In this document: one piece after another, positions 529-29,735 of the stretch | How the letters are laid out: each line of letters begins with the position of its first letter | Position numbering within the stretch: the first letter of the stretch is position 1 | Source: Micromonospora haikouensis | GTDB taxonomy: Bacteria; Actinomycetota; Actinomycetes; Mycobacteriales; Micromonosporaceae | Direction: 5' to 3' | DNA length: 33,295 nucleotides | Assembly (NCBI RefSeq): GCF_900091595.1 | Contig: NZ_FMCW01000001.1 | Span: forward strand, 1-33,295 | Notes under the pieces: generated by a model | Databases searched by the model: none | Seen by the model: only the letters and a program-made list of their open reading frames with translations | What the model was told of the DNA's origin: nothing | Program-made: the position numbers and the translations under genes

Positions 529-1335
529 TCAGGGGAGGCGTTGCAACGGTCCGACCTCGGGGGCGGTGAGGGCCCGGAAGTGCGCGACGAGCCTTTCCAC
601 CACCCCGGGGTCATGGAGCACCACGCCGACCTCGATGTTGTGGGATAACGCCCGGTCGGTGAGGTTGGCGCTGCTGACCAGCGCGACCTCACCGTCGGCG
701 GCGATGAACTTCGCGTGCAACGCGGCGTGTGGGTTTCCGTTCGCGGCCCGCCGTGCGGCCGGCCAGTGCCAGAACGTCGCCCGATCGCGGAGGGCCGCGA
801 AGGTGGCCGCCGCTCCGGATGACCCGCGCAGGGCACCGCCGTGCTCGGCTGAGCTTTCCAAAATCAGATCGATGTGTACGCCCCGGCGGGCCGCAGACCG
901 CAGCTCGGCGATCACCTCGGCCACCCCGTACGCGGCGAAGCTCGCCACGAGCAGGCTGCTCCGGGCCGCACGGACGACCTCGACGACCACGGAACTGGTG
1001 AGCCGGACCGGCACGGACGAACTGGTCGGCCCGCTGACGGCCAGCTCCGTCCGGTGCGCATCCGCCCGTTGACGGAGGAGGGCAGCGCTGCGCAGCGCCA
1101 GAGCAACCGCCGGACCGGGAAGGTCGGGTGCCTCGGTGCGCCAGCTCCTGACCAGCCGTCCGGCATGCGCGCTGACCGAGAACCCTGGCCGGACATCGAT
1201 CAGCTCGGCCGCGACCGTCGTCCCGTCGGTGGACCTGTCCACACCCATGAGCACACCGGCCCAGGCGGCGACGTGCTCGGCGGGGAGCGTGGCGGCGAGG
1301 TCGGCGATCACCTCCGCGAACCGCTCGTGGCTCAC
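529..1335 (-). CDS. drmC: DISARM protein DrmC, phospholipase D-like
   Basis: This 268-residue protein of the PLD superfamily has a single HKD signature at about residues 207-214 (HAKFIAAD), followed by SSANLTDRALSHNIE, the typical strand and loop after the catalytic His/Lys. One motif per chain implies a dimeric active site, as in PLD-type nucleases. DrmC is a core DISARM component with this fold, though reported as partly dispensable for protection. The GTG start at 1335 overlaps the drmB stop in a GTGA quartet, so it is translationally coupled as the last gene of drmA-drmB-drmC. The frame stays open far upstream of this GTG, but that extension lies inside drmB in the wrong frame. Length and position match class 1 DISARM. 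Confidence 0.9.
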   Translation of the reverse strand: MSHERFAEVIADLAATLPAEHVAAWAGVLMGVDRSTDGTTVAAELIDVRPGFSVSAHAGRLVRSWRTEAPDLPGPAVALALRSAALLRQRADAHRTELAVSGPTSSSVPVRLTSSVVVEVVRAARSSLLVASFAAYGVAEVIAELRSAARRGVHIDLILESSAEHGGALRGSSGAAATFAALRDRATFWHWPAARRAANGNPHAALHAKFIAADGEVALVSSANLTDRALSHNIEVGVVLHDPGVVERLVAHFRALTAPEVGPLQRLP

Positions 1336-3170
1336 CGGGCGAAGAACCCGGAGCCGGGGTCGGTGAGGGTGTCGACCAGCAAGGCCCGGTCCAGGTAGTG
1401 GTTGCCGCGTTCGCAGGAGGTCTCGGCGGCGAAGAGGCAGGCGTGGCAGGCGGCGGCCGACAGGCGGGCGTGCACGGTCGGGTCGTGCTCGGCGCAGAGC
1501 GGGTCGGAGCTGCACAGCCGGGCGGCGTCCAGGGCCCGTTCGACGAGTGGGCCGAGCCTGTCGGTGCGCCCCAGGGAGACGAGGCCGCCGAGGGTGCCCT
1601 CGCTGTCCGGTGCCGAGGTGTAGAGCAGCACCCCGGCCATGGGGGTGTCGCCGGAACGGGCGTAGACGCGCTCCCCGATGCCGGCAGCGCTGTATCCGCA
1701 TTCCAGGGCCAGCTCGCGGATGAGCACGTGGGCGAAGGTGTGCAGTAGGACGTACCGGGGACCGGGGTGCGCCTCCGGGTCCAGCCTGCGCTGCGCCCGC
1801 CAGAGGTCGTGGGCGCGGGTCAGCAGCTGCTCGCGTTGCTTGACCTGCGGTCGGTGTTCCCACTCGACGACGCGCTCCTCGTCGAACCGGAGGAAGATCC
1901 CTTCGCCCCGCATCTCGGCGCAGGGCAGCCAGGTCGGCTTGCCGGTGGTCAGCGGCACCCGTCGGCGGTCCGGCGTGTCGAGCACGTCCCACTCGGGAGC
2001 GTCTATCCGGGTGAAGCCGTACAGCGCGGAGACCTCCCGCAGCCGGGGGACGAGGACCACGTTCCGGAGCCAGTCCCCATGCTGGGCCGGCACCGGCTCC
2101 GGGCGGGTGGTGAAGTCGGGCAGCTCGGTGCTGGTGCCGGCGGTGAAGGCCAGCCATTCGGGCCTGCGCAGGTCGTCGCTGTCGTCGGGCTCGTCGTCGG
2201 TCCCGGCCTTGCCGCGGCGCTGGATCGCCGCCCAGACCCGGTCGACGCCGTACGGCTTCAGCTCGGCCCAGCAACCCTGGGTCGGCATGATCTGCTTGGC
2301 GATGGCGGCGTCAAGCCCGGCGAGGGGGGACAGGTCCGACCAGCGGTCGGCGACGACCTGGTCGACCGGATGCTCGGCCCGGGGGAGGCTGAACACCCGC
2401 AACTGCATGGCGAACCAGCTGTTGGTGGCGCCCAGGGCGAGCGTGCGGGTGGGGGCGTCGCAGGGCTCGTAGGTGCCGAGGTGGGGGTGGCGGCCGCGGC
2501 AGGCGGGCAGGGTGCGCTCGGCATGCAGGCCGATCGCCAGCGACATCGGTCGGGAAGCCTTGCACTCGCAGGAGATGAAGATGTTGGCCGCCTCGCCGGT
2601 GCTGCCGCGTTCGGCGAGCGTGAGCGAGTGACCGGGGCCCGGGTCCGTCCCGCCGTGCACGACGTAGGACCAGGGGAAGTCGTCCAGGTGGCCGTTGTCG
2701 CAGGCCAGCACGAAGCGGGCCGGCACTGCGGTGGGTCGGGAGTTTCCGTTGCCCCGGCAGCTGTGCACGTAGCGGGCCCGGTCCGGCTGGTAGGGCGACG
2801 ACAGCAGCTCGAACAGCCCGGAATCCGCCGGCGCGAGGCGGTTGCACCGGGTGTCCGAGCAGCGCAGCCAGGTGGGGAAGAGCGCCACCGGCACACCCAC
2901 CCGGGTCCAGTCGGCGAATAGGTCGGAGGTCTCGGGCAGGTGCGGCGGAAGCCGGAGACTCTCCACCTGGCCGCCGAGCCGGTGCCGGATCGCCGCGAGC
3001 AGTCTGTCCTCGGTGACCGTGACCGAATGCGTGAGGTCCCAGTGCGCCAGCCCCAGGGTCAGCACCGACAGGCTGGGCAGATCGGCGACCGAGCCGACGC
3101 CGTAGGTGTGCAGTAGCTGGTTGGGGCGCAGCGCGCCGACCCGCAGGCTGCGCTGCTGCGACCCGCTCAC
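1332..3170 (-). CDS. drmB: DISARM protein DrmB, DUF1998
   Basis: This 612-residue protein begins PNQLLHTYGVGSVADLP after a short leader, a typical DrmB N-terminus. The C-terminal third is DUF1998: LHTFAHVLIRELALECGY at about residue 475, then GVLLYTSAPDSEGTLGGL. A cysteine-rich stretch around 550-585 (CSSDPLC, CHACLFAAETSC) probably binds a metal. In known DISARM systems DrmB forms a complex with the helicase DrmA and binds DNA. The GTG start at 3170 overlaps the drmA stop (GTGA), and its own stop overlaps the drmC start in the same way. The reading frame extends upstream to 3305, but that part overlaps drmA and is not protein-like. Confidence 0.93.
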   Translation of the reverse strand: MSGSQQRSLRVGALRPNQLLHTYGVGSVADLPSLSVLTLGLAHWDLTHSVTVTEDRLLAAIRHRLGGQVESLRLPPHLPETSDLFADWTRVGVPVALFPTWLRCSDTRCNRLAPADSGLFELLSSPYQPDRARYVHSCRGNGNSRPTAVPARFVLACDNGHLDDFPWSYVVHGGTDPGPGHSLTLAERGSTGEAANIFISCECKASRPMSLAIGLHAERTLPACRGRHPHLGTYEPCDAPTRTLALGATNSWFAMQLRVFSLPRAEHPVDQVVADRWSDLSPLAGLDAAIAKQIMPTQGCWAELKPYGVDRVWAAIQRRGKAGTDDEPDDSDDLRRPEWLAFTAGTSTELPDFTTRPEPVPAQHGDWLRNVVLVPRLREVSALYGFTRIDAPEWDVLDTPDRRRVPLTTGKPTWLPCAEMRGEGIFLRFDEERVVEWEHRPQVKQREQLLTRAHDLWRAQRRLDPEAHPGPRYVLLHTFAHVLIRELALECGYSAAGIGERVYARSGDTPMAGVLLYTSAPDSEGTLGGLVSLGRTDRLGPLVERALDAARLCSSDPLCAEHDPTVHARLSAAACHACLFAAETSCERGNHYLDRALLVDTLTDPGSGFFAR

Positions 3171-6100
3171 GAGGACGCCCCGGCAGCGCCCACGGCGGGC
3201 GGAGCGAACGGTGGTGGGTCGTCCCCGCCGACACCGAGCTGCAGTTGGAGCTGGATGCCGGGCTCCACGTCCCGCAGGGAGGTGGGACAGGTGGTCTGCG
3301 CCCACCGGCCCTCCTCAGGGCGGTGCAACAGCCCGGCAATGTCGTCGCTGTGGTAAGGCTTGTCGTAGGCCAACCGCCGCGCGGGCCGGGCCCGCTCCCG
3401 CGCCCACAGGTCGAGGCGGGCCTCCAGCTCGTCCTCCACCCGTTGGCGAACCGTGTTGTCGGCGGCCACCTCGCTGCGACGCTTGAGGAACCGCACGACG
3501 TGGTCGGCGAGCTGACCGTGCCGGTCGAACTCGCGCGCCCGCAGGTTGCCGTTGTAGGTGCTCTCCAGATCGCGCACCAGGGCTACCAGCACCCCGGTCA
3601 GCCCCCGGTCGATTGCCCGCTCGGCGAACGGGGTCACCGACAGGGCCTCGACCTGCCGGTAGACTGTGGCGTGAAAGTGGTCGAACCGCTCGTAGTGCGA
3701 CAGGTCGCGCGGGCGGGCCCAGTTGTAGACGGTGAACACCAGGCCCGGCGCCTGCCGCCCGACCCGGCTCGTCGCCTGGATGTATTCGGCGGCGGACTTC
3801 GGCTGGTTGGCCACCACTATCACGCCGAGCCGGGCGATGTCGACACCGACGGCGATCATGCTGGTGGCGAGGAGCACGTCGACCGGCCGGGGAGCACCCT
3901 TGGGGCGGGTGCCGTCGAAGCGCACCGCGAGCCGGTCCAGCAGCGGCCGGATGGCGTCCGAGGGCATCCGGGAGGTCAGCTCCTCCAGGTAGGGGTCGTA
4001 CCGCCGGGCGAGCCCGCGCTCGTCGGCGCGAACCAGCCGGCTGGAGACGTCGTCCTCCACCAGCCGGCGCATGCCGCCCAGGTCCCGCAGGCTGTTGAAG
4101 TAGCCGACCAACGTCATGTACGGGTCGGTGACGCGGTTTCGGCCGTAGGTCTCGTGGAGCTTCTGCGCCGCCCCGAGCACGGACACGTAGACCCGGATCA
4201 GGGTCGACCGGAGCCGGTTGCCGTGCGCGCAGATGCCGATGTAGCGGCGGCCCGGGCGGTCCTCGGTCGCGCGCTGCCGCGCGAAGAAGCTGTCGGAGGC
4301 GTCGAGCCCCGACGGTGGGAAGACCCGCGTGCGCCGGTTGAACAGCGCCCCGATCTGCTGCTGGGCGCGGCGCACGGTGGCGGTGGAGGCGATCACCTTC
4401 GGCCGGGACCACTGCCCGGGGGCCGGTTCCCAACTGGCCAGCCGGTCTACCGCGGTCTCGTAGAGCCCGACCAGCGAGCCGAGCGGCCCGGAGATCAGGT
4501 GCAGCTCGTCCTGGATGATGAGGTCGGGCGGACGCAGCCGTGCACAGGGGACGACCCGGTTGCCCGGCCGGTGGCGCTTGCGCTCCCAGTCGGTCGATTC
4601 GAGGTCCTCGGTGAGGTAGCCGTGCTGGTCGCAGCGCTTGCCGACCCGGCCGAAGAGGGCGGCGGTCTCGCCCTTCCACGGCAACTGGGCGAACTTGTCG
4701 ACCGTGGCGATCACCAGGGCCGGCGGATGGCGGTAGAGCTCCTCGTCGACCAGGATCACCGGCAGCCCGACCTGGTCGCCGGCGAGCGGGTAGCCGCCCG
4801 CCTCGCTGAACGGGCACTCCACATCGAAGCAGAGCACCAGGGTCCGCCAGTGGTCGCGTTCCACCTTGATGTCCCGACCCGGCTCGATCTTCGTGCCGCA
4901 CCAGGGGCAACTGGTGAGCTGGTGCGGTGAGCCGATGCCCCGGTGTGACCGGCCCCGCCGCCGTTCGTCCAGCCACTCCTTCGCGTCCTGGGTGCGGTTC
5001 GGGGTGACCCGGCCGCCGACCCACAGCCCGATCCGGATCGGCGTCTCGCCCCAGGTCTGCGGGTCTGCGCGGCGCAGGGACTCCGCCGCGCAGATCAGCG
5101 TCGCGGCGCGCTCGAACTGCTGGATGGTGAGCAGGCGCAGGGTGTACCGCATCAGCACCGCCAGCCCGGTCCCGCCGGTCAACCCGCCGTGGTCCGGCTG
5201 GCGGCGGCGTACCGCGATGGTGAAGGCGGTGAGACCGAGGTACGCCTCGGTCTTGCCGCCACCGGTGGGGAACCAGAGCAGGTCGGCGACGGCGCGCTCG
5301 ACGTCGTCGCCCCGCTCCGGGTGCCGAGGGTCGGCCAGGGCCGGCAGGTTGATCAGGACGAAGGCCAACTGGAACGGACGCCACCGGTGGTTCTCCGGCT
5401 GGTCGGCCTCGACGACCGCCTGCGCCAACGGAAGGTGCGGGTGTTCCCGCCGCCGGGCCGCGACGACACTGTGCACCCGTTGCAGGTACATCGCCCGGTT
5501 GGCGAAGCCGAACGCCTCACGGGCCGTCGGATCCGGGGCGGCGAGCAGCCTGATGCCGGCGGCGATCCGGTCGGCCGCCTCCCGGGCGTCGCGCAGCGCC
5601 TCGCGCACCTGCGGGCCGTATTCGTCGAGCCGCCGCTGCGGGTCGGCGGCGGTCGCCTCGTTGCGGTCGATCCACGCTCGGTAGCCGGCGGCGAGGGGCT
5701 GCAACGCGGCCGTGAGGGCCTCGACCGGGCCGGCTGCCAGCTCTGCGAGCCGCCGCATGTCCAGCTCCACGTCGGCCAATTCGGGCAGGTCGTCGTCCCG
5801 CTCGCTGCTGGGCACGTCGGTGAACGGCAGCTCGTGCGCGGGGACGGTCGTGGTGCGTACCCGATGGGCCCGCAGCGGGTCGGCGGCGGATGGCTCGGCG
5901 TGGACGGCCGTGCCGTGCCCCACCGCGAACTCGGGGTGGAACCGGTAGGCCATCGCCAGCCGGCGCCGCTCCGCCCGGTCGGCGTCGTCGCCGCCGGTGA
6001 CCTGCTCCGGCCGGGGCACGAAGACCGGCTCGTCGCCCGGCGGGCCGGTCGCGGTCAACTCGACCTGGAAGATCCACCGGTTTGCCTGGCGCGGCGAATC

Positions 6101-6667
6101 GCTGTGCTCCCGGTTTTCCAGGAAGAGCGAGACCAGCCAGACGTCGCCCAGCCGGCGCACCCGCCCCCGCACCACGACCTTCGGCTGCGCCGCGTCGACG
6201 TGCTTCGGGCCGATGGGCCCCTCGCGCAGGGGCACGGTGACCGGGCCGCCGCGCTGGTGCCGCCGCCAGACCCGGCCGCCGGCGTGCTCCGCCCGCTCGT
6301 CGACCGCGATGTCGTAGCTGCCCCAGGCGGCGGTGACCCGCAGCTCGGGGACCGACGGCGGCACGCTGGTGGTGAAGCCGAGCGCGGAGGGCGCCAGGCT
6401 GGGCACGTTCGGCGCGGTCGGCTCGGGGCCGCCCTCCGCCGCGTCCGACGCGGTGGCCTCGGTGAAGGTGTCCTCAGTGGCCGGATCGACGGACACGCCG
6501 TTGGGGGCGAGCCGCCCGAGAACGTAGCGGTCGAGCGGATTCTCCCTGGCGGAGAACTCCTCGGCCGGCCCGCCGAGCGGCCCGAGCAGGTCGGCAACGA
6601 CCAGCTGTTGCAGCTTGTCGCGGATCACCCGCTCATCCGGCACGGCGAGCACGCTCTCCCCAGTCAT
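3167..6667 (-). CDS. drmA: DISARM protein DrmA, SF2-type helicase
   Basis: This 1166-residue ATP-dependent helicase is the DNA-translocating core of DISARM. Visible motifs are Walker A FPTGGGKT at residues 466-473, a DEAH-type box as QDELH at 719-723, the STAT motif III near 760, LLATSMIAVGVDIARLG near 940, and motif VI QATSRVGRQAPG near 965. A zinc-ribbon-like CPWC with later cysteines lies around 590-620. The N-terminal 400 residues are family-specific. The ATG at 6667 has no Shine-Dalgarno, but a TANNNT box sits 7 bp upstream, so the mRNA may be leaderless. This gene heads the operon drmA-drmB-drmC, with 4-bp overlaps at each junction. It lacks its usual neighbour drmMI directly upstream, because about 7.3 kb of other genes intervene. 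Confidence 0.94.
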   Translation of the reverse strand: MTGESVLAVPDERVIRDKLQQLVVADLLGPLGGPAEEFSARENPLDRYVLGRLAPNGVSVDPATEDTFTEATASDAAEGGPEPTAPNVPSLAPSALGFTTSVPPSVPELRVTAAWGSYDIAVDERAEHAGGRVWRRHQRGGPVTVPLREGPIGPKHVDAAQPKVVVRGRVRRLGDVWLVSLFLENREHSDSPRQANRWIFQVELTATGPPGDEPVFVPRPEQVTGGDDADRAERRRLAMAYRFHPEFAVGHGTAVHAEPSAADPLRAHRVRTTTVPAHELPFTDVPSSERDDDLPELADVELDMRRLAELAAGPVEALTAALQPLAAGYRAWIDRNEATAADPQRRLDEYGPQVREALRDAREAADRIAAGIRLLAAPDPTAREAFGFANRAMYLQRVHSVVAARRREHPHLPLAQAVVEADQPENHRWRPFQLAFVLINLPALADPRHPERGDDVERAVADLLWFPTGGGKTEAYLGLTAFTIAVRRRQPDHGGLTGGTGLAVLMRYTLRLLTIQQFERAATLICAAESLRRADPQTWGETPIRIGLWVGGRVTPNRTQDAKEWLDERRRGRSHRGIGSPHQLTSCPWCGTKIEPGRDIKVERDHWRTLVLCFDVECPFSEAGGYPLAGDQVGLPVILVDEELYRHPPALVIATVDKFAQLPWKGETAALFGRVGKRCDQHGYLTEDLESTDWERKRHRPGNRVVPCARLRPPDLIIQDELHLISGPLGSLVGLYETAVDRLASWEPAPGQWSRPKVIASTATVRRAQQQIGALFNRRTRVFPPSGLDASDSFFARQRATEDRPGRRYIGICAHGNRLRSTLIRVYVSVLGAAQKLHETYGRNRVTDPYMTLVGYFNSLRDLGGMRRLVEDDVSSRLVRADERGLARRYDPYLEELTSRMPSDAIRPLLDRLAVRFDGTRPKGAPRPVDVLLATSMIAVGVDIARLGVIVVANQPKSAAEYIQATSRVGRQAPGLVFTVYNWARPRDLSHYERFDHFHATVYRQVEALSVTPFAERAIDRGLTGVLVALVRDLESTYNGNLRAREFDRHGQLADHVVRFLKRRSEVAADNTVRQRVEDELEARLDLWARERARPARRLAYDKPYHSDDIAGLLHRPEEGRWAQTTCPTSLRDVEPGIQLQLQLGVGGDDPPPFAPPAVGAAGASS

Positions 6668-6693
6668 GAGAGCGACCGTAGCGTTTCCCTACG
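6668..6693 (-). promoter_or_regulatory. Putative leaderless promoter of drmA with small dyad
   Basis: Read on the minus strand, TACGGT (plus positions 6675-6680) lies 7 bp before the drmA ATG, the spacing expected of an actinobacterial -10 box for a leaderless transcript. No good -35 hexamer is visible 17-18 bp further up. A 5-bp inverted repeat (CGTAG at 6677-6681, CTACG at 6689-6693) overlaps the box and could be an operator. Assignment rests on spacing and pattern only. Confidence 0.35.
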
Positions 6694-6770
6694 ACATGGC
6701 GGGGGTCGGTCCGTGCGGCACCTTCGGTGGGGTGGATCCGTTAGGCTACGGCGGGCCGGTCATACGGCGT

Positions 6771-7994
6771 TTGCTACAGGCAAGGGCCGGGGCGAATCGA
6801 GGTGGCGAGATTTCCGAGCTGGAGCCAGACGTCCTCGAAGAGTTGGACTCGCTCGGACGAGCGACGGGCATTGAGGTCGACGACGCCCAGGACGCCCGCG
6901 CCGATCAGGCGATCGACGCGATCCACACCCCGTTCGACCCGGAAAAGATCGACGTGGTCACCCGTAACACCACGGTCGACTTGCTGTTGTCCCGCATCCG
7001 CACGGGGCGCGTCGACCTGCAACCCGACTTCCAGCGTCAGGCCGGGATCTGGCGGGCGATGGCCAAGAGCCGCCTGATCGAGTCGCTGCTGCTGCGCATT
7101 CCGCTGCCCACCTTCTACGCCGCGGAGGGCGACGACGAGGCGTGGGCCATGGTCGACGGCATCCAGCGACTGACCACGATCGCGCAGTTCATCGAGCCGG
7201 AGGCGATCAATAGGGAGCCGCTGCGGCTGGTCAACCTGGAATACCTGGGCCAGGAATACGACGGCAAGACCTTCGATGATCTGCCCGGGCGGTTGCAGAC
7301 CCGGCTGAGGGAGACCGAGCTCATCGTGCACCTCATCCGGCGGAACACGCCGGAGGAGGTCAAGTTCAACATCTTCGCCCGGATCAACACCGGCGGCCTG
7401 CCGCTCTCCCGGCAGGAGCTGCGGCACGCCCTGATTCCGGGCAAGGGCCGGGAGATTCTGCGCGAGTGGGCCGAGTCCGACGTGTTCCGCTCGGCAACCG
7501 GCGACAGCGTGCGCAGCGAGCGGATGGTCGACCGGGAGATGATCCTGCGGTTCATCGCCTTCCGGCTGACCAGCCCGTACGACTACGACCACGACGACTT
7601 CGACCGCTTCCTGCGGGAAGCCATGCGCAACCTGAACGCGTTGCCCCCGTCTGAGGTCGAGCGGCTGTGGAAAGAGTTCGGCATCGCGATGATCGCGGCC
7701 AAAGGGATCTTCGAGCAGCATGCCTTCCGCAAGCGCGACCGGGCCGGGGGTAGCCGCCGCATGCCCATCAACAAAGCTCTGTTCGAGGCGATCTCGGTCA
7801 ACCTCGCGGAGCTCGGCGGTCCGGGAATGGCGCTGCTGATGACGCAGCGACGCAAGGTGGAGAAGAAGTTCATCGGCCTGATGAACGACGTCGACTTCCA
7901 AGGTGCGATCTCCCAAGGGACGGGTGACCCAGGCAAGGTGCGCCTGCGCTTTGCGCTCATCCGGAAGATCTTCGAGTCGGTGGTGGGCCGATGA
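6771..7994 (+). CDS. DUF262 protein (ParB/Srx-like nuclease or NTP sensor)
   Basis: DUF262 family. With the TTG start used here it has 407 residues. Diagnostic motifs are LQPDFQR near residues 83-89, MVDGIQRLTTI near 127-137 (canonical DGQQR), and FARINTGGLPLSRQELRHAL. DUF262 is the N-terminal domain of GmrSD and SspE-type enzymes, where it senses or hydrolyses NTPs and controls DNA cleavage. No HNH/DUF1524 partner domain is visible, so any nuclease must be this domain or another subunit. The start is uncertain: the frame is open from 6615, with ATG at 6666 and 6696, GTG at 6732 and TTG at 6771, none with a strong ribosome site. Family-like sequence begins only at ISELEPDVLEEL. It overlaps the next ATPase gene by 4 bp (ATGA). 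Sequence here is visibly less GC-rich than in the drm genes. Confidence 0.85.
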   Translation: MLQARAGANRGGEISELEPDVLEELDSLGRATGIEVDDAQDARADQAIDAIHTPFDPEKIDVVTRNTTVDLLLSRIRTGRVDLQPDFQRQAGIWRAMAKSRLIESLLLRIPLPTFYAAEGDDEAWAMVDGIQRLTTIAQFIEPEAINREPLRLVNLEYLGQEYDGKTFDDLPGRLQTRLRETELIVHLIRRNTPEEVKFNIFARINTGGLPLSRQELRHALIPGKGREILREWAESDVFRSATGDSVRSERMVDREMILRFIAFRLTSPYDYDHDDFDRFLREAMRNLNALPPSEVERLWKEFGIAMIAAKGIFEQHAFRKRDRAGGSRRMPINKALFEAISVNLAELGGPGMALLMTQRRKVEKKFIGLMNDVDFQGAISQGTGDPGKVRLRFALIRKIFESVVGR

Positions 7995-9151
7995 TCGAGC
8001 GGCTGCGCCTGGAGAACTTTAAGGCTTTTCGACACCTGGATCTGCCTCTGGCGCCCCTCACCCTGCTCAGCGGGGTGAACGCAGCCGGCAAGAGCACCGC
8101 CATGCAGGCGCTGGCGCTGCTACGGCAGTCGGACGATGCAGGGGTGCTCGACACCAAGGGCGGGCTGCTGCTCAATGGGGAACTCGTCGAACTTGGTGTC
8201 GGGCAGGACGTACTCCACGAGAACTACGCGGACGGCAGGGGAGGGGGCAGGGTCTTCATCGCCGTCGCCGTCACGATCGACGGGCACGAAAGCCGCTGGC
8301 GGGTCGAATATCGGACTGCCGAGGACCGTGAGGCCGATCTGCTCAAATTCCCGCTGAGTTGGGAAGGCTCTGACCAGCCGCCGACGCCGTGGCACCCGCC
8401 GAAGCGGAAAGGCCTCTTCTCAGCCGGTTTCCAATATCTGCGGGCCGACCGGATCGTGCCGGCCGTGACCTACCCGAAGTCGTTCGAGATGGCGGTGCGG
8501 CGGGGATTCCTCGGAGTCCGGGGTGAGCACACGGTGAACTACCTGCGGGCTCGCGAGGACTGGGTCACCTCGCCTGATCTGCTTCATCCGGCCGCGAAGT
8601 CGACCGGTCTGCTCGACCAGGCCGAGGCGTGGCTGCGGGAGATCTGTCCCGGCGTCAACCTGATGGCAGAGGACCTGCGCGGCACCGACATGGTGCGGTT
8701 GAGCTACGGATTCGGCGGCACTGCCGGCATCACGTCGTCCAACATCCGTTACCGTCCCACCAACGTCGGCTTCGGCCTGACGTATGCCCTGCCGATCATT
8801 GTGGCCTGCCTTTCCGCAGGTCCGGGCCGGTTGGTGATGCTGGAGAATCCGGAAGCGCATCTGCACCCCCGGGGTCAGACAATGGTGGCGCGGCTGGCCT
8901 GCCGTGCCGTGGCGGCGGGCGGCCAGTTGATAATCGAGAGCCACAGCGATCATGTGCTCAACGGAGTGCGACTCGCCGTCAAGGACGGGGTATTGACGCC
9001 GAATCACGTGGCGTTGCATTATTTTGACCGGAACGACGACGGCGAGATCGAGGTCAGCTCTCCCGAGATTGACCCCGACGGCATGTTGTCGCAGTGGCCC
9101 AGGGGTTTCTTCGACGAGTGGGACAGGGCGCTTGATCGTCTGCTCGACTGA
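7991..9151 (+). CDS. DUF3696 AAA/ABC-type ATPase
   Basis: This 386-residue ATPase belongs to the SMC/OLD-like group. The N-terminus carries NFKAFRHLDL and Walker A GVNAAGKST at residues 28-36. Walker B is LVMLENPEAHLHP near 281-293, followed by the switch histidine in IIESHSDHVLNG. The end (IDPDGMLSQWPRGFFDEWDRAL) is the DUF3696 tail. ABC-type ATPases of this sort act as sensors or motors in several anti-phage systems, usually regulating a partner nuclease. The ATG overlaps the DUF262 stop by 4 bp and the next gene follows 13 bp later, so all three are one operon. I infer that the ATPase and the DUF262 protein form one complex. The substrate is unknown. Confidence 0.92.
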   Translation: MIERLRLENFKAFRHLDLPLAPLTLLSGVNAAGKSTAMQALALLRQSDDAGVLDTKGGLLLNGELVELGVGQDVLHENYADGRGGGRVFIAVAVTIDGHESRWRVEYRTAEDREADLLKFPLSWEGSDQPPTPWHPPKRKGLFSAGFQYLRADRIVPAVTYPKSFEMAVRRGFLGVRGEHTVNYLRAREDWVTSPDLLHPAAKSTGLLDQAEAWLREICPGVNLMAEDLRGTDMVRLSYGFGGTAGITSSNIRYRPTNVGFGLTYALPIIVACLSAGPGRLVMLENPEAHLHPRGQTMVARLACRAVAAGGQLIIESHSDHVLNGVRLAVKDGVLTPNHVALHYFDRNDDGEIEVSSPEIDPDGMLSQWPRGFFDEWDRALDRLLD

Positions 9152-9164
9152 CGAGGAGTGACTC

Positions 9165-10082
9165 TTGTCCTTGCTGCTGGTGCTGAACGAGCTTTCCTAC
9201 CGGGAGACCAAGGCGCGGCGCGAGGAAGTGTCAGATTCACTACACGGCCTCGTGGGATTGTTGCGAAAGGTTCGTCAGCACCGCACCGACGTTGCTCTGG
9301 TCACCGAGCGTCGGTTCTTCGATCTCGACCTGGGCGACGACTATTCCGTCCGTGAGTGGGCCGGTGACGGGCGTAATCGCGACGCATTGCGCTACCTGCG
9401 TGGCATGCGCCAGCGCGCTCCGTTCCGGGACGTCGCCCCGGCTGATCTCCGCGACGGGACGGAATACTTCCACCGGGAGCGGCCGGCGGAGGGCCTGGGC
9501 ACCGCGCACCAGGTCGGTGGGCTGGCCGTGAGCCTGCCGCTGGCGCAACTGTGGGAAGAGCCGCTGCTGTGGCTGAGCCAGCGGGGCCTCGCCGAGGACG
9601 ACGCCGGAGCTGTCGCGCTCACCGAAGCTGAGGTGGACGTGCGGCACGCCTCCCGGTCGGAGCACGTCGACGAGCATCGGCAGTGGCTCTGCGACTCCGA
9701 GCTGACCCGGATCCACACTGGATCCGATCTTTGGGAAGCGCGGGAGGATGTCTTTCCGCATCTTCGCTTCCTGCCCCGCGTCGCCGACGACCTGCTCCGG
9801 CTCGCCCCGGCCTGGCTCAACCCGGTGAAGGAGCGGCTCGCCGACCTTGAGCTGGCGGCGTCCGCCTGGGCGCCAGCCGTGGAGGCCGCCCCGCGTTGGC
9901 GGAGCAAGGTGACGCCGGAGAGCGAGACCCGCAAGGCGCTCTGCCGCTTCGTCGACACCGACGGGCAGGCGCACCTCTTCGACTGGCACGCGCGGTTCAC
10001 GCCAGGGGCGGGGCGACTGCACTTCCGCATGGACGGGGCCCGGCAGCAGCTCGTCGTCGCCTACATCGGAGCCAAACTCTGA
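9165..10082 (+). CDS. Unrecognised 305-residue protein, third gene of DUF262-DUF3696 cassette
   Basis: I do not recognise the family. The TTG start at 9165 is supported by GAGGAG at 9153-9158, 6 bp upstream, and by the end of the ATPase gene at 9151. The protein is soluble, with no signal peptide or membrane segment. Histidine-rich stretches (HASRSEHVDEHRQW near 165-178) and a terminal block, FDWHARFTPGAGRLHF...LVVAYIGAKL, stand out. The terminal pattern (R-x-H-F, a variable turn, then V-x-Y-I-G-x-K/H-L) weakly recalls the last strands of RelE-type toxins, but no catalytic set can be assigned. Its place behind two typical defence proteins suggests the specificity or effector subunit of that module. 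Confidence 0.85.
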   Translation: MSLLLVLNELSYRETKARREEVSDSLHGLVGLLRKVRQHRTDVALVTERRFFDLDLGDDYSVREWAGDGRNRDALRYLRGMRQRAPFRDVAPADLRDGTEYFHRERPAEGLGTAHQVGGLAVSLPLAQLWEEPLLWLSQRGLAEDDAGAVALTEAEVDVRHASRSEHVDEHRQWLCDSELTRIHTGSDLWEAREDVFPHLRFLPRVADDLLRLAPAWLNPVKERLADLELAASAWAPAVEAAPRWRSKVTPESETRKALCRFVDTDGQAHLFDWHARFTPGAGRLHFRMDGARQQLVVAYIGAKL

Positions 10083-10311
10083 AGCCGCAATTGACCTTGG
10101 ACGAATCCGCCGTGCGGCAGCCGGCTCCACCGCGCGCCGATCGTGCAGATGCGGCCCCCGAGTAGGGCGCTTCACTCCTTTTGCCCGGGCCGCAACCGCA
10201 AGATCGCGGAAGGCGGCGGCGTCGTGATTTCGAAATCGGAATGTCGTTCGGGACAGGGGTGTCGTGGGCCGCTGCGGCGTTCATCGAGGGCTCCGGCTTC
10301 GGTGTGGTCAT
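9997..10311 (-). pseudogene. Short ORF behind the XRE-TPR gene, probably a remnant
   Basis: The ATG at 10311 overlaps the stop of the XRE-TPR regulator as ATGA, the same coupling seen between the other two genes of this operon. The first ~35 codons look coding (MTTPKPEPSMNAAAAHDTPV, then NDIPISKSRRRRLPR). Beyond that the translation becomes rich in Cys, Arg and Ser and runs antisense into the end of the 305-residue gene, overlapping it by 86 bp. A +1 shift after the arginine run gives a more ordinary stretch (AFRDLAVAARAKG). It could therefore be a real small gene with a short conserved start, or a gene broken where the neighbouring cassette joined. No function can be given. Confidence 0.3.
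10226..10237. repeat. 12-bp perfect palindrome in the 10083-10307 gap
   Basis: GATTTCGAAATC is a perfect 12-bp palindrome between the convergent 305-residue gene and the XRE-TPR gene. No GC-rich terminator stem is obvious in this 225-bp stretch. It may be a binding site or simply chance. It also lies inside the possible remnant ORF on the minus strand. Confidence 0.3.
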
Positions 10312-11513
10312 GGGCGGGTCAGTCCGATGGCGGTGGCGAGGCGGGTGATGTCGGCGGAGGTCTGCCCGGTGCGGAGGATGGCAGTGAGGGCGGTTCTGGC
10401 GGTCGGGCGGGTGCGGGTCTCGGCGGGGGCGATGCGGTCGGCGGCGGTCAGGGAGCGGCCGGCGGCCTGCGGGTCGCCGAGGTCGAGGTAGGTGTGGGTG
10501 ATGTCGATGAGGTGGGCGGCGCGGTGTTCGGCGGGGAGCAGGTGCCAGCCGTCGCTGTTGACGACCTGCCGGTGGACGATGGCGGCATGGTGGTGGTCGC
10601 CGAGTCGGGCTGCCGTGAGGGCGCGGGCGAGTTCGACGGCGGTGGGGCCGAAGGCGATGCCGTCGCCGTCGGGCTGATGCTGGCTGTCGTGCGCGGCGGC
10701 GAGGTGGGCGGCGCGTTCGGTGAGGTCGTGGGCGGTGGTGGCGTCGCGGTAGGTGGCGGCGGCGAGGGCGGCTTCGAGGAGCAGGGTCGCGGTGAGCCCG
10801 GGTTCGTCGGGCAGGAAGGCGCGCGACGGGGTGCGGTCGAGCTGGTGTACGGCGGTGAGCGCGGCGGTCTGCGCAAGGCGTCCCCGGTGCAGGGCGCGTA
10901 GGGCCTGGGCGAGGGAGATCGCGGCGAGGGCGGTGCGGTGTGGGTCGCCGGTGGCGGCGGTCATGGCGCGGTCGGCGGCGAGCCAGGCGAGGTGGGGCTT
11001 GCCGAGCTTCACCAGTGTCTGGGCGGTGAGCCGGTAGACGCGGACGATCGGGTCGGCCGCTGTCTCGGCGTGTTGGGTGTGCCGGGTGGCGGCGAGCAGG
11101 TCGGGCAGGGTGCGCAGGACCTGGGCGTGGTGGCCGTTGCGGTAGGCGGTCCAGGCGTACCCGGCCTGGTCGTCGAGCTGCCGCACGGTGGGGCTTTCGG
11201 TGTCGGGTGGGTCGTGGCGGGCCAGCGCCGCCCGGATGCGCTCCACGGCGGCTTCGGTGTCGGTGACGGCTTCCCGGTGGGGCTTGTCGGCGAGCAGGAC
11301 GGCCGGGGCGACGCCGAGGGCGGCGGCCACGGTTTCGATGACGGAGAGCCGGTCGAGGGTGCGTACGCCTCGTTCGACCTTGTCGACCCAGCTCTTCGAC
11401 CTGCCGATCCGGTCGGCGAAGACCTGCTGGCTCATGCCCCGGCGGGCGCGCAGCTCGGCCATCCGCCGCCCGATCGGCACCTCGGCGCGACTGTGCCGGC
11501 CGGGCCCGGTCAT
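10308..11513 (-). CDS. XRE-family regulator with TPR-like C-terminal region
   Basis: This 401-residue protein has an N-terminal helix-turn-helix at about residues 14-72 (IGRRMAELRARRGMSQQVFA, then RIGRSKSWVDKVERG). About 300 residues of alanine- and leucine-rich helical repeats follow (AWLAADRAMTAATG, AISLAQALRALHRG, LARALTAARLGD), typical of the TPR-like sensor half of large actinobacterial XRE regulators. The ATG at 11513 overlaps the stop of the preceding small membrane-protein gene (ATGA), so the start is set by coupling. Third codon positions are almost all G or C. It lies in the segment separating the two halves of DISARM. Whether it controls the defence genes or only its own operon cannot be seen. 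Confidence 0.87.
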   Translation of the reverse strand: MTGPGRHSRAEVPIGRRMAELRARRGMSQQVFADRIGRSKSWVDKVERGVRTLDRLSVIETVAAALGVAPAVLLADKPHREAVTDTEAAVERIRAALARHDPPDTESPTVRQLDDQAGYAWTAYRNGHHAQVLRTLPDLLAATRHTQHAETAADPIVRVYRLTAQTLVKLGKPHLAWLAADRAMTAATGDPHRTALAAISLAQALRALHRGRLAQTAALTAVHQLDRTPSRAFLPDEPGLTATLLLEAALAAATYRDATTAHDLTERAAHLAAAHDSQHQPDGDGIAFGPTAVELARALTAARLGDHHHAAIVHRQVVNSDGWHLLPAEHRAAHLIDITHTYLDLGDPQAAGRSLTAADRIAPAETRTRPTARTALTAILRTGQTSADITRLATAIGLTRP

Positions 11514-11653
11514 CGGCCCCGACCTGCCGGCGGGATGGCGTCGGTGGTCTCGCCGCAGCGGGGGCACCAGCGGGACTTGACCCGGAACGCGAGCAGCCCG
11601 AGCAGGAAGCCCGGCACCAGCCCACCGAACACGAGCGACACGACTTCGGACAT
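11510..11653 (-). CDS. Small membrane protein with CPRCG motif
   Basis: A 47-residue protein with a hydrophobic segment at about residues 3-24 (VVSLVFGGLVPGFLLGLLAF), then the basic stretch RVKSR and a half zinc-ribbon WCPRCGETTD. The ATG at 11653 is preceded by GAGGA about 8 bp upstream. The stop overlaps the ATG of the XRE-TPR regulator by 4 bp, so the two are co-translated. Such short membrane proteins often precede XRE regulators in actinomycetes; a role as membrane anchor or signal input is only inference. Longer in-frame starts up to 11788 exist, but they would run into the divergent promoter region. Confidence 0.6.
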   Translation of the reverse strand: MSEVVSLVFGGLVPGFLLGLLAFRVKSRWCPRCGETTDAIPPAGRGR

Positions 11654-11763
11654 CACGAGGGTCCTCGCTTCCGGACGGCGAAGTGGAGCTGGGCGGCGGC
11701 TCTGGTCCTGGCCAGGCGCGCACCTTCTGGAGGTGTTCGGTAGCTTGTAGTGACCAGGGTGGC

Positions 11764-11777
11764 GCATCAAGTGATGC
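11764..11777. promoter_or_regulatory. Candidate operator between divergent XRE genes
   Basis: A perfect inverted repeat, GCATCA-AG-TGATGC, lies in the 208-bp region between the small membrane-protein gene (minus) and the XRE-DUF5753 gene (plus). About 24 bp downstream, TATGGT at 11801-11806 could be a -10 box for the plus-strand gene, although no good -35 is present. Position and symmetry suit an XRE dimer site. Confidence 0.45.
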
Positions 11778-11861
11778 AAGGCAAGCACTCACCGCGGATG
11801 TATGGTGGATCGCATGTGAGTCGGGACAACCGATCCAGCGATGTTGGTGCAGAATCAGGAC

Positions 11862-12710
11862 ATGCCTCGATTCATGCCCGCCACTCCCCGCTCCCGCCGG
11901 CTCGGTCGGGAGTTGCGCAAGCTCCGCGAAGCCAAGGGGCTGACCGGTGAAGGGGCGGCGGATCTCGTCCGCTGCTCGTCGTCACGAATCAGTCGAATCG
12001 AGTCCGGCGAGATCAGGCCCCGCGTCGGTGACGTGATGGAGCTGCTGGTCGCGTACGGCCTCAGGATCGATGAGGAGCCGGGCGAGTCGCTGCTGGAGCA
12101 GGCACGTGGCCTGCGCGAGGACGGGTGGTGGCAGCGCATCGGCGGCAAGTACGCCACCTACATCGCGTACGAGACCGAGGCCGTCGAACTCAAGAACTTC
12201 GAGCCGATGCTGGTGCCCGGTCTACTGCAGACCGAGGCGTACGCCCGGGAGGTCAACGTCATCGGCCGGGAGACCGACCCGGACGGCATCAAGCAGCGGG
12301 TCGACGCCCGGATGACCCGGCAGGAGGTGCTCCGCCGGCAGCCGACGCCGCTGCGGATGCACGCCATCCTGTCCGAGGCGTCCGTGCGGACGGAGGTCGG
12401 CGGACCCGACGTTCTGCGCGAGCAGCTCGACCACCTGGTCGCGCTGAGCCGGCTGCCCAACGTCACCATCCAGGTGCTGCGCTTCGAGGCCGGGGCGCAC
12501 CTGGCCATCAGCAGCGGCTTCGCCCTGCTCAGCTTCGAGCAGGACGAGCCGCCGCTGGGCTACATCGAGACCCTGGCGGGCGAGCTGTTCCTCGAGTCGA
12601 ACCGCGACCTGGCGCGACTGTCGGCGGCGTACGACAATCTGAAGACGTTGGCACGTTCGCCGGCCGAATCGATCAAGTTCATCAGGGAGTTGAGCGAGCA
12701 TGGAGCGTAA
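11862..12710 (+). CDS. XRE-family regulator with DUF5753 domain
   Basis: This 282-residue protein has an N-terminal helix-turn-helix at about residues 13-72 (RLGRELRKLREAKGLTGEGA, then SSSRISRIESGEIRP) and a C-terminal DUF5753 domain from about 95 (YETEAVELKNFEPMLVPGLL, then later LAISSGFALLSF). This architecture is very common in actinomycetes and is typically paired with a DUF397 gene, as here, where the two overlap by 11 bp. Partners of this type act in developmental or antibiotic regulation (the WhiJ group). An ATG at 11841 is also in frame. I prefer 11862 because the MPRFMPATPRSRRLG start is typical of the family and AGGA lies just before it. Confidence 0.92.
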   Translation: MPRFMPATPRSRRLGRELRKLREAKGLTGEGAADLVRCSSSRISRIESGEIRPRVGDVMELLVAYGLRIDEEPGESLLEQARGLREDGWWQRIGGKYATYIAYETEAVELKNFEPMLVPGLLQTEAYAREVNVIGRETDPDGIKQRVDARMTRQEVLRRQPTPLRMHAILSEASVRTEVGGPDVLREQLDHLVALSRLPNVTIQVLRFEAGAHLAISSGFALLSFEQDEPPLGYIETLAGELFLESNRDLARLSAAYDNLKTLARSPAESIKFIRELSEHGA

Positions 12711-12888
12711 CGCCTGGCGCAAGTCGAGCCGGTCCGGCAACAACGGCCAGTGCGTCGAGGTGCGCGACCGTGGGCCTCAGGTCGACGTACGCGACTCCAA
12801 GGCCCCCGCAGCGGGCATGCTGAGCTTCGACGCTGCCGCCTGGGACGCGTTCGTCAGCGGCATCAAGACGGACGGCGATCGCCCCTGA
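12700..12888 (+). CDS. DUF397 protein
   Basis: A 62-residue DUF397 protein with the hallmark start WRKSSRSGNNGQCVEV, then VRDSKAP and a C-terminal LSFDAAAWDAFVSGIK. DUF397 proteins are small partners of XRE-DUF5753 regulators and are thought to modulate them antitoxin-like or as co-regulators. The ATG lies within the last codons of the regulator gene (11-bp overlap), so translation is coupled. The locus ends at a bidirectional hairpin shared with the convergent HIRAN gene. Confidence 0.93.
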   Translation: MERNAWRKSSRSGNNGQCVEVRDRGPQVDVRDSKAPAAGMLSFDAAAWDAFVSGIKTDGDRP

Positions 12889-12890
12889 GC

Positions 12891-12944
12891 TGAGGCGGGG
12901 TGGCCCGGCTCAAGGCCGGCGCGGCGGGTCGGCGGCCCGCCTCA
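12891..12944. terminator. Bidirectional terminator between DUF397 and HIRAN genes
   Basis: The 9-bp arms TGAGGCGGG (12891-12899) and CCCGCCTCA (12936-12944) are perfectly complementary. They enclose a second hairpin, CCGGC-TCAAG-GCCGG (12905-12919). The structure begins 3 bp after the DUF397 stop, and its right arm contains the HIRAN stop codon. It would act on both convergent transcripts. There is no T-tract, which is common in actinomycetes. Confidence 0.6.
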
Positions 12945-13931
12945 CTCGGAGACCCAGAACTGCCATCCCTGCGGCGCGGGGGGCCACGACGGATCGGGCC
13001 GCCAGCCCTGCGGCGGGACCCAGCCCGCCGGAGGCGGCGGCCACTCCGGGGGCACGACGAACCTCCACCGTGCTGCCGTCGCCATCTCCTGGCTCGTTGA
13101 CGACTCCGCCCGCTCGGCCGGATTGGTGCCCCGGGCGGTGGGTGGCGAATCCAGCCAGGCGTCCGACAGTTCGCTCGCCTTGGCCAGGTTGACCGCGACA
13201 TCGGCCTTGACCCGGTTGCCCTTCAACACGGCACGGGCAGCGGTGGTCAGACCCTTGTCCCTCAGGTGGCCGATCACCGGCAGGTTCTCCGTGGACATTG
13301 CCGGGCTCAGGGTGCCGGCGGCGAGGCCGTTGATCCGGACCTCGACGAGGGTGCGGGTGGACCGGGCCCGCTGCACCTCGACCTCGTGCAGGGTCACGTA
13401 GACCCAGGATTCCCCGCTCGGGCTGATCAGGGACGCGAGGTGCGACATGTGCTTCTCCTCGCCGGTCACCTGGATGAAACGGCCAGCGGGAAGCACGGTG
13501 TGCAGCTCCGACGGTGGCATGTTCGTCGGCACGATCATGTGCGGCTCGGCGAGGTCGATCCGCACCGACGCGACGAACGTCCGCCGACGTGGATCGTCCC
13601 AGTCCTCGCGCTCCTGCGCCCACACCCGGGCCTGCACCTGAGGCGTCCAGCCCTGATCGATCAGTGCGGTGAGAACCGGCGAGAACTCCCGAGCCTGCTC
13701 CTTGGGCAGATGGCCGACCTGCTTGCCGGAGCAGAGCACCTTCACGGCGTGCGGATCGTATCGGTTGGTCGGCTCCGGAATGAGCTGAGCCGGCACGGTC
13801 AGCTCGTTGTCGCCGTCCGGATCGAACGCCCGCCCGAACAGGTCCCGGATGTTCTTGGCGTAATGCGATTCGCCAGCGACTTCCTGCGAACACCAGCCAC
13901 GCTGGCCCCACAGATCAAATGCTCGGGTCAC
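12942..13931 (-). CDS. Stand-alone HIRAN-domain protein
   Basis: A 329-residue protein whose N-terminus is a HIRAN domain at about residues 17-115 (VAGESHY, then LIPEPTNRYDPHAVKVLCSG, then QVGHLPKEQA). HIRAN is found at the N-terminus of SNF2 helicases such as HLTF/Rad5, where it binds 3' single-stranded DNA ends. The middle (150-290) is unassigned. The last ~35 residues are rich in Pro and Trp (PEWPPPPAGWVPPQGW), a tail common in actinobacterial proteins. It lies on the same strand as drmD-drmMI, 78 bp behind drmMI, so it may be an accessory DISARM gene. The GTG start at 13931 has no Shine-Dalgarno and sits in the stem of a long inverted repeat. A TANNNT box 6 bp upstream suggests a leaderless transcript. 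Confidence 0.82.
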   Translation of the reverse strand: MTRAFDLWGQRGWCSQEVAGESHYAKNIRDLFGRAFDPDGDNELTVPAQLIPEPTNRYDPHAVKVLCSGKQVGHLPKEQAREFSPVLTALIDQGWTPQVQARVWAQEREDWDDPRRRTFVASVRIDLAEPHMIVPTNMPPSELHTVLPAGRFIQVTGEEKHMSHLASLISPSGESWVYVTLHEVEVQRARSTRTLVEVRINGLAAGTLSPAMSTENLPVIGHLRDKGLTTAARAVLKGNRVKADVAVNLAKASELSDAWLDSPPTARGTNPAERAESSTSQEMATAARWRFVVPPEWPPPPAGWVPPQGWRPDPSWPPAPQGWQFWVSE

Positions 13932-13960
13932 CGAGGCAACGTAGCGCCTCGGCGACCCGA
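13923..13960 (-). promoter_or_regulatory. 15-bp stem over the HIRAN start codon
   Basis: TCGGGTCACCGAGGC (13923-13937) faces GCCTCGGCGACCCGA (13946-13960) across an 8-nt loop. The only DNA mismatch becomes a G-U wobble in minus-strand RNA, so the drmMI-HIRAN transcript could form a continuous 15-bp stem starting about 50 nt after the drmMI stop. The 3' arm contains the HIRAN GTG, and the loop contains TACGTT, a possible -10 box. It may be a drmMI terminator, an operator, or a structure hiding the start codon. Confidence 0.55.
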
Positions 13961-14009
13961 ACCGGGTTCACCTGAACGGCTGGGGTGGTTGTCAGGCATC
14001 CGACATCGT

Positions 14010-17000
14010 TCAGAACAGGGCGTCTGGAAGGGGAAAGAGCCCGCCGTCCAATGCGGGCGGCTCCGAATCCGGTGCCTCTGCGGACCTGGGGCGCGGGGCG
14101 GCCCGCGTCTGCTTCCGCGGCTTGCGTCGGGTGGTGGTTTGTTGGGGCTTCTCCTGCTCGTGGCGCTGGTGGTTGAGGTCGAGCAGCAGGTCCAGCAGTT
14201 CGACCTGGGCGGTCGGGTCGATGGTGAACCGGACGCCCTGCCGGGTCCGGTGGAAACCGTGCCCGAGCGTGAGGTTGAACCCGTACGCCTCGGCGACCGC
14301 CTCGTCGATCTCGACGTGGATGTCTCGCAGGCGGCGGATGTCGGCGCTGGTCACCTGCTCGTCGTGGACCAGGTTGTAGAGCTTCGTCAGCCCCAGCTCC
14401 CGCCCCAACATCACCGATCGCCGGTACGAGTCCAACTCCGCCCCGACCTGCGCCATCCGCCCGGTCGGCTCGGGCATCGGGAAGGTCTCGAACCCATCGG
14501 ACGGCGTATAGCGGGGGTCAGACCTGAGGCTCGATTCGCCCTTCGTCGTCCACCACGAGAAGTGAAAGCTGCTGGACAGGGATGCTAGGTCTTCCGCCTG
14601 ATCGGTAGCAAAGACGACCACTTGGTCGCTGAGGACCTGCTTCGTTGGCGCGAATACAGGTAGCCCAGTCTTGCTGACCCTGGCGATGACGAGCACCCTA
14701 TCGAGGCCTTCGATTGCCGAGTAGAGCGCGGGAGCCCGTTCAGCGAATTGCCACCATCTCTCGCGTCGTGCTACTCGATTGTTGGTCGCACGGAACGGCT
14801 TGACTTCTCGTTCGACGATGGCGAAGCAGTCGGGGTATTCCTGGGCGCGTTCGAGTGACCAGTTGTGGAAGTTGATGACCCGGCGGCGGGCCGAGCAGTC
14901 GGGGCGGCTGTTCAGGTCCTCGCCGTTGAGGTAGGGGAAGAGCACGTCCTTGTTGCGCGGGTCCTTGTCGATCAGCGCCTGCGCCTGCTCCGGTTCGAGC
15001 AGGAAGCCGGTGCCCAGGACGTACGAGCCGATGTAGGACTGGCCCGCGTTGGCGGTTAGGCGGTACGGGTTGCCGGTGACTCGGGAACGGGCATCCAGCG
15101 ACGGGGTAATCCCCGGCACCCGGTTGCCGTCGAGGACCGGCTGCTCGTCGTCGGCGGCGTGACCGACCCAGAGCAGGGAAACCTCCAGTGAGGCGGTGCC
15201 CGGCCAGGGCTGGGACTTGTTCGCCCGGTAGACCGTCCAACCCATGTCCACCGCCTGATCGAGGCCGACCTCCCGGGTGTCGCCCTGAGCGATCGTGTTG
15301 GTGGCGATGATGCCCACCCGCCCCTTGCCCGTGACGCTCAGGTTGCGCAGCAGGAAGTAGGAGCAGAGATCCGCGCTGCCCCGCTTCCCCCGACCGATCC
15401 GCTCGACCAGGTATTCGCGCACGTCCGGCCCGATCGCCCCGGTCAGCCGCTGACCGCCGACGAACGGCGGGTTGCCGATGACGGCGTCGAAGCCGGCGCG
15501 GTTGACCACCTCGGGGAACTCCAGCGGCCAGTGCAGCGGCCGGATCGGCTCCGGCCGGGTGCCGCGCAGCCAGCCGGCGACGGTGATGCCGATCCGCTGC
15601 TCCAGCTCCGCGTCGTACGGCCCGTCGAGCAGGCGGTGCACGTCGTCGCTGATGCCGAGCAGGCGGCCGTCGTACTTCGTCTCCGGGTCGTCGGTGTCGT
15701 CCTCCGGGTCCCACGGGCGGCGCTGGGCGCGGACGGCCGTGGAGAGCGCCGCGCCGACCACCGCGTCGGCGGCCAACCGCAGGCCCCGGCCCAGGTGCTC
15801 GACCTCGGCGAGCTTGGCGTCCTTGTCGGCGGCGTCCCGGGTGTCCTCGACCACCGTCGCGCCGATCGACTCGCGCAGGGCGGTGATCTCGCCGACGGTC
15901 CGGTGCAGCCGGTCGACCAGGTCGCCGAAGAGGCGGCTGTGCTGGAAGCGCCCCGCCTCCGGGTCGAGGTGGAAGGCGGTGAGCTGGTCGAGGGAGGTGA
16001 TCCCGACCAGCGAGTCGCCGCAGCGCAGCGCGTGGTCGAGGAAGCCGAACGGCTTGCCCTTGGCCAGGGTCACCAGCCACAGCGACAGCTTCGCCAGCTC
16101 CACGGCCATGTCGTCGCGGTCCACCCCGTAGAGGCAGCGGGCGGCGACGAGGCGGCGGGCCGCGAGCAGCAGGTCCTCCTGGTCCGGGTTGCCGTTGGCC
16201 AGGTCGGACAGTTCGGCGGGGAGCCCGTCGCGTTGCCAGGCCCGCACCACCACCTCGGCGAGATAGCGGCAGGCTGCCACCAGGAACGCGCCGGAGCCCA
16301 TCGCCGGGTCGAGCACCTTCAGCCGCAGCAGCTCGTCGGCGGTCTTGGCCCGCCACACGCCCTCGTCGGTGACGCCCTGGGCCGGGCCGGGGGAGAAGCA
16401 GAGCGGCGCGAGGGTGTGCCGGACGACCTCCTCGGCCAGCTCCCGGGGAGTGTAGTGAGTGCCGGTGTTGCGCCGGTCGCCGAACTGGGTGAACAGCACC
16501 GAGCCTGCGGGGAAGACCGTGGGCAGGTCGCGCAGGTCGACGCGGAGCAGCCCCCAGTACGGGCGTACCCGATCGGTCAGGTCGGCGTCGTTGTCGCAGG
16601 CCGCGTGCAGCGCGGCGAGCTGGTGCGGCGCGGGCGTCGCGGCCCTGGCCCTCTCCACCTGCCGGACGGTGAGGTCGCAGCGGGCGACCAGCCAGACCCG
16701 CAGCTCCGCCTCGCCCCGGGCCGCCGCCGCTTCCAGCTCGGCCAGCGGCAGCTCCGGCTCGCGCTTGCCGATCAGCCCGACGTACGGCTCCCGCACCCGG
16801 GCGCAGGAGAACTCGAGCAGGCCCTCGTAGACGTGGCCGAGCTGCTCGACGCCGAGGCTGGAGTAGCTGAGCTGCTCCGCTGCCTTGCCCCGGTGCCGCA
16901 GCACCAGCAGGGCGTCCAGCATCTCGTGCACCACCCGGTCGGTGACCGCCGCGTCGACCAGCCAGGGGAACCGTCCGGGGTCGAACAGGGACCCGCCGTG

Positions 17001-29711: not shown

Positions 29712-29735
29712 GCTCCTCGATGTTCGTACCTTCAA

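Follow-up and report, generated by a model that had tools for sequence, protein, structure and literature searches.

A Menshen cassette inserted in a DISARM locus of Micromonospora haikouensis and its candidate translation-stopping effector

The window analyzed here, a stretch of 33,295 nt from Micromonospora haikouensis (GCF_900091595.1, contig NZ_FMCW01000001.1, positions 1-33,295 of the forward strand), carries a DISARM defense locus and, within it, three plus-strand genes, nsnA (6771..7994), nsnB (7991..9151) and nsnC (9165..10082). This cassette is a new copy of a known system inserted in DISARM. Our reading, to which we assign a probability of roughly 60%, is that the trio is Menshen, inserted between drmMI and drmA, and that NsnC, which has a predicted RelE/YoeB-type RNase fold, is the likely effector, stopping translation when phage is sensed. 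The window shows Menshen, reportedly named by Millman et al. in 2022, as cargo carried within DISARM, and the same genus also has a DISARM locus in which this site is empty.

Identity of the cassette

Each of the three proteins matches, nearly end to end, an Nsn model of PADLOC-DB, a 2023 defense library in which the models share one system prefix: NsnA matches PDLC03877 (E 8e-131; residues 75-457 of the long open reading frame (ORF) on profile positions 13-383 of 385), NsnB matches PDLC03878 (E 2e-112; profile 1-343 of 345) and NsnC matches PDLC03879 (E 1e-99; profile 1-303 of 305). The genes are contiguous, in A-B-C order and on one strand, as in the layout of Nsn (Menshen), and we take the NsnA, NsnB and NsnC model names to be those of the Menshen genes. 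The first-pass annotation of this DNA had described three tightly packed plus-strand genes, with a 4-bp overlap and then a 13-bp gap, encoding a DUF262 protein, an OLD-like DUF3696 ATPase and an unrecognized 305-residue protein, in a less GC-rich cassette with its own orientation inside DISARM. These observations were borne out: the ORFs lie where it had placed them, Pfam agrees on the first two proteins and has no match for the third, and library models confirm the flanking drm genes, which are all on the minus strand.

The nsnA frame is open from 6615 and includes the TTG at 6771, but where translation begins is uncertain, since several close NsnA homologues start roughly 8-17 residues further in. 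The nsnA/nsnB overlap reads ATGA, and nsnC starts with TTG just downstream of AGGAG. The GC content of the trio is 66.3%, against 72.9% in drmA-C and 72.6% in drmMI plus drmD, or about 73% in the drm genes. Equally low GC occurs in 6 of 600 sliding windows of trio length, the minimum starting at 6451 and overlapping the trio, and a further dip (65%) falls within drmMI, at about 14.0-15.5 kb, so that the trio is not alone in its low GC.

What did not survive from that annotation is the proposal that the trio is an undescribed system known under no name. NsnC has no Pfam match at E 0.1 and no NCBIfam name, but PADLOC-DB already catalogs all three genes and an operon of this architecture has been published as ptuXYZ (PMC11980606), which rules the proposal out as a candidate and leaves it next to no probability. 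A defense-type three-gene unit that is inserted in DISARM and occurs in the same order elsewhere is the part of the interpretation that stands; there is no need to follow the cassette up as something undescribed.

Within the trio, NsnA carries a ParB/Srx-type DUF262 domain with a VDGIQR motif (Pfam DUF262/GmrSD_N, E 3e-21), followed by a helical domain. Its structure model appears to resemble BrxU over both domains, the match stopping at BrxU residue 422 of 580, where the C-terminal nuclease part of BrxU is placed by the model comparison to begin. No DUF1524/HNH nuclease was found by Pfam at E 0.1, and no PDB relative by sequence at E 1. NsnA thus shares the ParB/Srx-type DUF262 domain with the type IV restriction proteins BrxU, GmrSD and SspE, and the helical domain with BrxU, whereas the trio lacks a DUF1524 HNH match and has an ATPase and a RelE-fold protein as extra partners; membership in GmrSD/BrxU type IV restriction was rejected, DUF262 being present and DUF1524 absent at that threshold. 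The NsnA alignment, A3, comprises 61 of the 120 homologues listed (of 3681).

NsnB (386 aa) is an OLD-type ABC ATPase with a C-terminal DUF3696 domain (Pfam AAA_15, PF13175; AAA_21, PF13304; DUF3696, PF12476, E 2e-14), and its Walker A, Walker B and H-loop motifs are intact at residues 28, 281 and 316. A sequence-level Pfam search at E 0.1 gave no TOPRIM match. NsnB resembles PtuA by sequence (PADLOC E 4e-11; NCBIfam E 1.5e-7, below its cut-off), and among chains of known structure an OLD chain is the best sequence match (E 1.5e-9), PtuA chains giving E 0.001-0.005. The OLD-type ABC ATPase is common to Gabija, PARIS and Septu, from which the trio differs in having neither a TOPRIM nor an HNH nuclease match. 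A second NsnB-like ATPase is encoded elsewhere in the same genome (G000:C3:3175-4422, E 3e-38).

Two published accounts bear on the name of the system. The review PMC10952713 describes Menshen as a DUF262 protein with an OLD-type ATPase and associates a predicted OLD nuclease with it; the trio has the same pairing, besides its almost full-length Nsn matches, and differs in sitting in DISARM and in the missing TOPRIM match of NsnB. PMC11980606 (2025) presents ptuXYZ as a novel three-gene operon, with 17 operons in the figure, in which a DUF262 protein that lacks DUF1524 is joined by an ATPase resembling PtuA and by a protein whose N-terminal domain is PIN-like and whose C-terminal domain is YoeB-like. 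By architecture, nsnA, nsnB and nsnC correspond to ptuX, ptuY and ptuZ, sharing the DUF262 protein without DUF1524, an ATPase that by sequence is of PtuA/OLD kind and the predicted C-terminal YoeB-like BECR fold of the third protein, and differing in a PIN-like N-terminal domain that is only weakly seen in NsnC. Since the two architectures are the same, we infer that Menshen and ptuXYZ are one system, so that two published names may denote the same operon. The word Menshen is absent from the main text of PMC11980606. A comparative Menshen study (NAR 2025, gkaf357), cited in two other papers, may already cover the points made here about NsnC. Among the literature matches listed, nothing relevant appeared under the names NsnA, NsnB or NsnC, and only an unrelated paper under DUF3696.

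NsnC as the candidate effector

The AF2 model of NsnC (pLDDT 95.4) has two domains. For the N-terminal alpha/beta domain (residues 1-182; 9165..9710, plus strand) the matches are only weak, with VIA-align giving no single clear family; its counterpart in the third ptuXYZ protein is called PIN-like in PMC11980606. The C-terminal domain (residues 196-305; 9750..10079, plus strand) has a predicted RelE/YoeB (BECR) fold, as in the third ptuXYZ protein, and keeps a Glu, a His, Arg and a terminal Lys/His (E252, H275, R277, R284 and K304). In predicted fold and in the conserved Glu, His and Arg it appears to resemble the ribosome-dependent RNases RelE, YoeB and HigB, unlike which NsnC is a two-domain protein encoded in an ATPase operon. 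Profile alignment of NsnC to RelE/ParE places a single residue pair, R284-R61. These comparisons yield residue-level predictions for the likely effector, at R284, H275, E252 and K304. From the underlying alignments, 10 of 99 NsnC homologues, all short, were left out of A1, and 1 of 17 homologues, a self match, out of A4. The NsnC profile also gave two weak matches of unrelated kinds among PDB sequences (E 0.054 and 0.16). In two other genomes (L086 in G055 and L087 in G011) only the C-terminal part of the NsnC model is weakly matched (E 9e-5 and 5e-4), possibly by separate RelE-type domains.

If NsnC acts in this way, a halt to protein synthesis is the likely means of protection by the trio. 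NsnA, through its ParB/Srx-type nucleotide-binding domain, would read some feature that marks DNA as foreign or modified, NsnB would couple ATP hydrolysis to this signal, and NsnC, silent in the resting complex, would be set free or activated and would then cut RNA on the ribosome, with growth arrest or abortive infection as the outcome. Were NsnC a ribosome-targeting RNase, Menshen would link the sensing of modified DNA to translation arrest. A more elaborate scheme, which we put forward only as a tentative and rather doubtful proposal, equates Menshen with ptuXYZ and has a BrxU/GmrS-like sensor stripped of its HNH nuclease, an OLD-type ATPase that unleashes a RelE/YoeB-type RNase restrained within the complex, and thus a toxin-antitoxin logic without an antitoxin gene; in DISARM it would serve as an abortive second line against phages escaping methylation-based restriction, much as BrxU complements BREX, there by cutting DNA directly.

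A number of points weigh against Menshen with NsnC as a translation-stopping RNase. The pairing of H275, R277, E252 and K304 with toxin residues was made by eye, H275 and R277 fall beside RelE K52 and K54, which are dispensable in RelE, and no equivalent of RelE Y87 is seen, the protein ending at its last strand. The top RelE-type match in Foldseek, 2khe, is weak (E 0.067, probability 0.97), and nothing of any kind was found at E 0.001. With hhalign, the NsnC profile reached a probability of only 12% against RelE/ParE, the second NsnC clade alone gave no support against RelE (P 0.3), and for three E. coli toxins compared one by one the alignments spanned just 2-3 residues, again without support. 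When 90 NsnC members were scanned against Pfam, the 25 of 29 weak matches listed included no RelE family. The RelE/ParE superfamily also holds gyrase inhibitors, according to PMC11980606, whose author proposes a nuclease role for the ptuXYZ DUF262 protein as well.

This last proposal leads to an alternative in which Menshen/ptuXYZ acts on DNA, phage DNA being degraded by the GmrS/BrxU-like NsnA or by a partner nuclease while the RelE-fold domain of NsnC is structural or a sensor. Two published statements speak for it, one calling the DUF262 protein a putative nuclease (PMC11980606) and one tying a predicted OLD nuclease to Menshen (PMC10952713), and the RelE-fold domain, which is conserved better than any other part of NsnC when clades are compared, would also suit a docking module. 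Yet NsnA ends where the nuclease part of BrxU begins and gave no DUF1524 match, NsnB has no TOPRIM match in Pfam, and the residues kept in NsnC are charged and lie at about the YoeB/RelE positions; we consider DNA destruction unlikely. Much less likely still is an ordinary type II toxin-antitoxin module standing beside an ATPase by chance. The predicted RelE/YoeB fold would fit a toxin, and plus-strand ORFs of 55, 75 and 61 aa, less than 600 bp downstream of nsnC, could be candidate partners, but NsnC is no single-domain toxin, being a 305-aa protein in which a domain of 180 residues precedes the toxin-like one, the 13 bp between nsnB and nsnC leave no space for an antitoxin gene, and nsnC accompanies nsnA and nsnB at every one of 80 loci sampled.

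Insertion in DISARM and distribution

Those loci are the best 80, by NsnA similarity, of 310 relatives that an NsnA alignment retrieved from GTDB genomes. In all of them nsnB adjoins nsnA and the A-B-C order is fixed; nsnC is the next gene on the same strand in 79 by tblastn and in the remaining one, L078, by profile. L078 had been a candidate for replacement of NsnC by an unrelated protein among close relatives, which was dropped, the third gene being NsnC by profile. The sampled relatives span Actinomycetota, Pseudomonadota and Cyanobacteria. Matches to both DrmA and DrmB, within flanks of up to 10 kb, occur at only 2 of the 80 loci, so nesting is uncommon.

One of these two loci, L002 of Micromonospora endophytica, has nsnABC at the same place with 86% DNA identity, the rest of the block aligning in short pieces only; in the other, L016 of Streptomyces rochei, the trio has DrmD/DrmMI-like genes on one side and DrmA/DrmB-like genes on the other (29-38% identical), in a single orientation throughout, its DrmA and DrmB matches being 35-37% identical and so assigned at the level of similarity only. 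Together the two loci suggest that nesting in DISARM arose more than once.

In the window, drmA (3167..6667; NF038325, 1308 bits, cut-off 950) is divergent from nsnA, with 103 bp between them if nsnA starts at 6771. It is accompanied by drmB (1332..3305, ORF as listed, start uncertain; PADLOC DrmB E 1e-75, MZB PF09369) and drmC (529..2274; ORF residues 315-580, the C-terminal part; NF038319, 217 bits, cut-off 133; PADLOC E 1e-117), and on the far side of the trio lie the methyltransferase gene drmMI (14010..18506, ORF as listed, start uncertain; PADLOC DrmMI, 1573 bits, residues 155-1472) and the helicase gene drmD (18125..21313; NF038317, 1335 bits, cut-off 610). PADLOC models are matched by drmA and drmD as well. 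The closest of the DISARM loci examined in the genus, L135, can be aligned to the window as far as 14010, where drmMI ends, and then again from 6683, a short way before drmA; 885 bp of L135 lie between the two points. The window therefore has a block of about 7.3 kb (6684..14009; nsnABC and regulator-like genes) that is missing from this empty site. Of 160 genomes of the genus, 22 have DrmA above the cut-off, and 20 DISARM loci from 19 of these were examined (G032 and 20 genomes with DrmA below the cut-off were set aside; one locus, L138, is only 7.3 kb long). At E 1e-6, tblastn finds none of the three Nsn proteins in these 20 other loci, and the trio was accordingly rejected as a constant part of DISARM.

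An accessory module that works only with DISARM would agree with the nested position divergent from drmA, with the same nesting in M. endophytica and with the co-directional trio among drm-like genes in S. rochei. It is very unlikely nonetheless, given the 2 of 80 loci with DrmA and DrmB matches, the absence from the 20 other DISARM loci of the genus, and the NsnA relatives in 51 of 72,556 plasmid records (E 1e-20), a count in which NsnA alone was scored and DISARM status played no part. Of the 51 plasmids, 29 are predicted to be conjugative, and the NsnA match reaches an annotated DUF3696 gene in 6 of 15 records listed.

A DrmMI-like neighbor occurs at 23 of the 80 loci, with a DrmD-like gene as well in 16 of them, perhaps reflecting a recurrent composite island. 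Counting all 23 as DISARM was rejected: at L024, the one checked against the library, the methyltransferase fits type IIG far better than DrmMI (8e-271 and 9e-49), and the helicase downstream scores as Druantia DruE. At that Streptomyces locus Menshen is flanked upstream by the type IIG restriction-methylase, which has a DrmD-like helicase upstream, and downstream by the DruE-like helicase, together with an HTH_31/DUF5753 regulator and an HATPase_c_2 gene.

The system is sparse. Of 296 genomes in the phylum, 9 contain NsnB (E 1e-30), its own included; the NsnC model finds matches in 4 of the 101 genomes searched, the window's own and those of relatives, but in two of the four the match is weak and partial. 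The NsnA model matches in 19 genomes of the genus, yet among the 17 others than those of the window and M. endophytica, an NsnB match lies beside it in only 1 (tblastn E 1e-4), so that the NsnA model used by itself probably over-calls, and the plasmid count should be read with equal caution.

Neighboring genes

Beside the trio, at 10308-12710, are two HTH_31 regulators, one of them with DUF5753 (11841-12710); the corresponding stretch of L002 in M. endophytica encodes a CapP-like protein (15942-16961, E 7e-17). Adjoining drmD, a 1333-aa ORF on the plus strand (21554-25555) combines a caspase domain at residues 131-348 (PF00656, E 8e-17) with an SF1 helicase (AAA_11/AAA_12) that is Mokosh MkoA-like (E 7e-51), and it may be a defense protein of its own. 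On the minus strand, at 25626-29924, an ORF of 1432 aa, in which a single Ig-like domain is weakly matched (PF17957), lies in a stretch of strong AT skew. Near the end of the window, a plus-strand sequence (31788-33293) encodes a Condensation domain of the kind found in non-ribosomal peptide synthetases (PF00668, E 8e-82), so the defense genes may abut a biosynthetic cluster.

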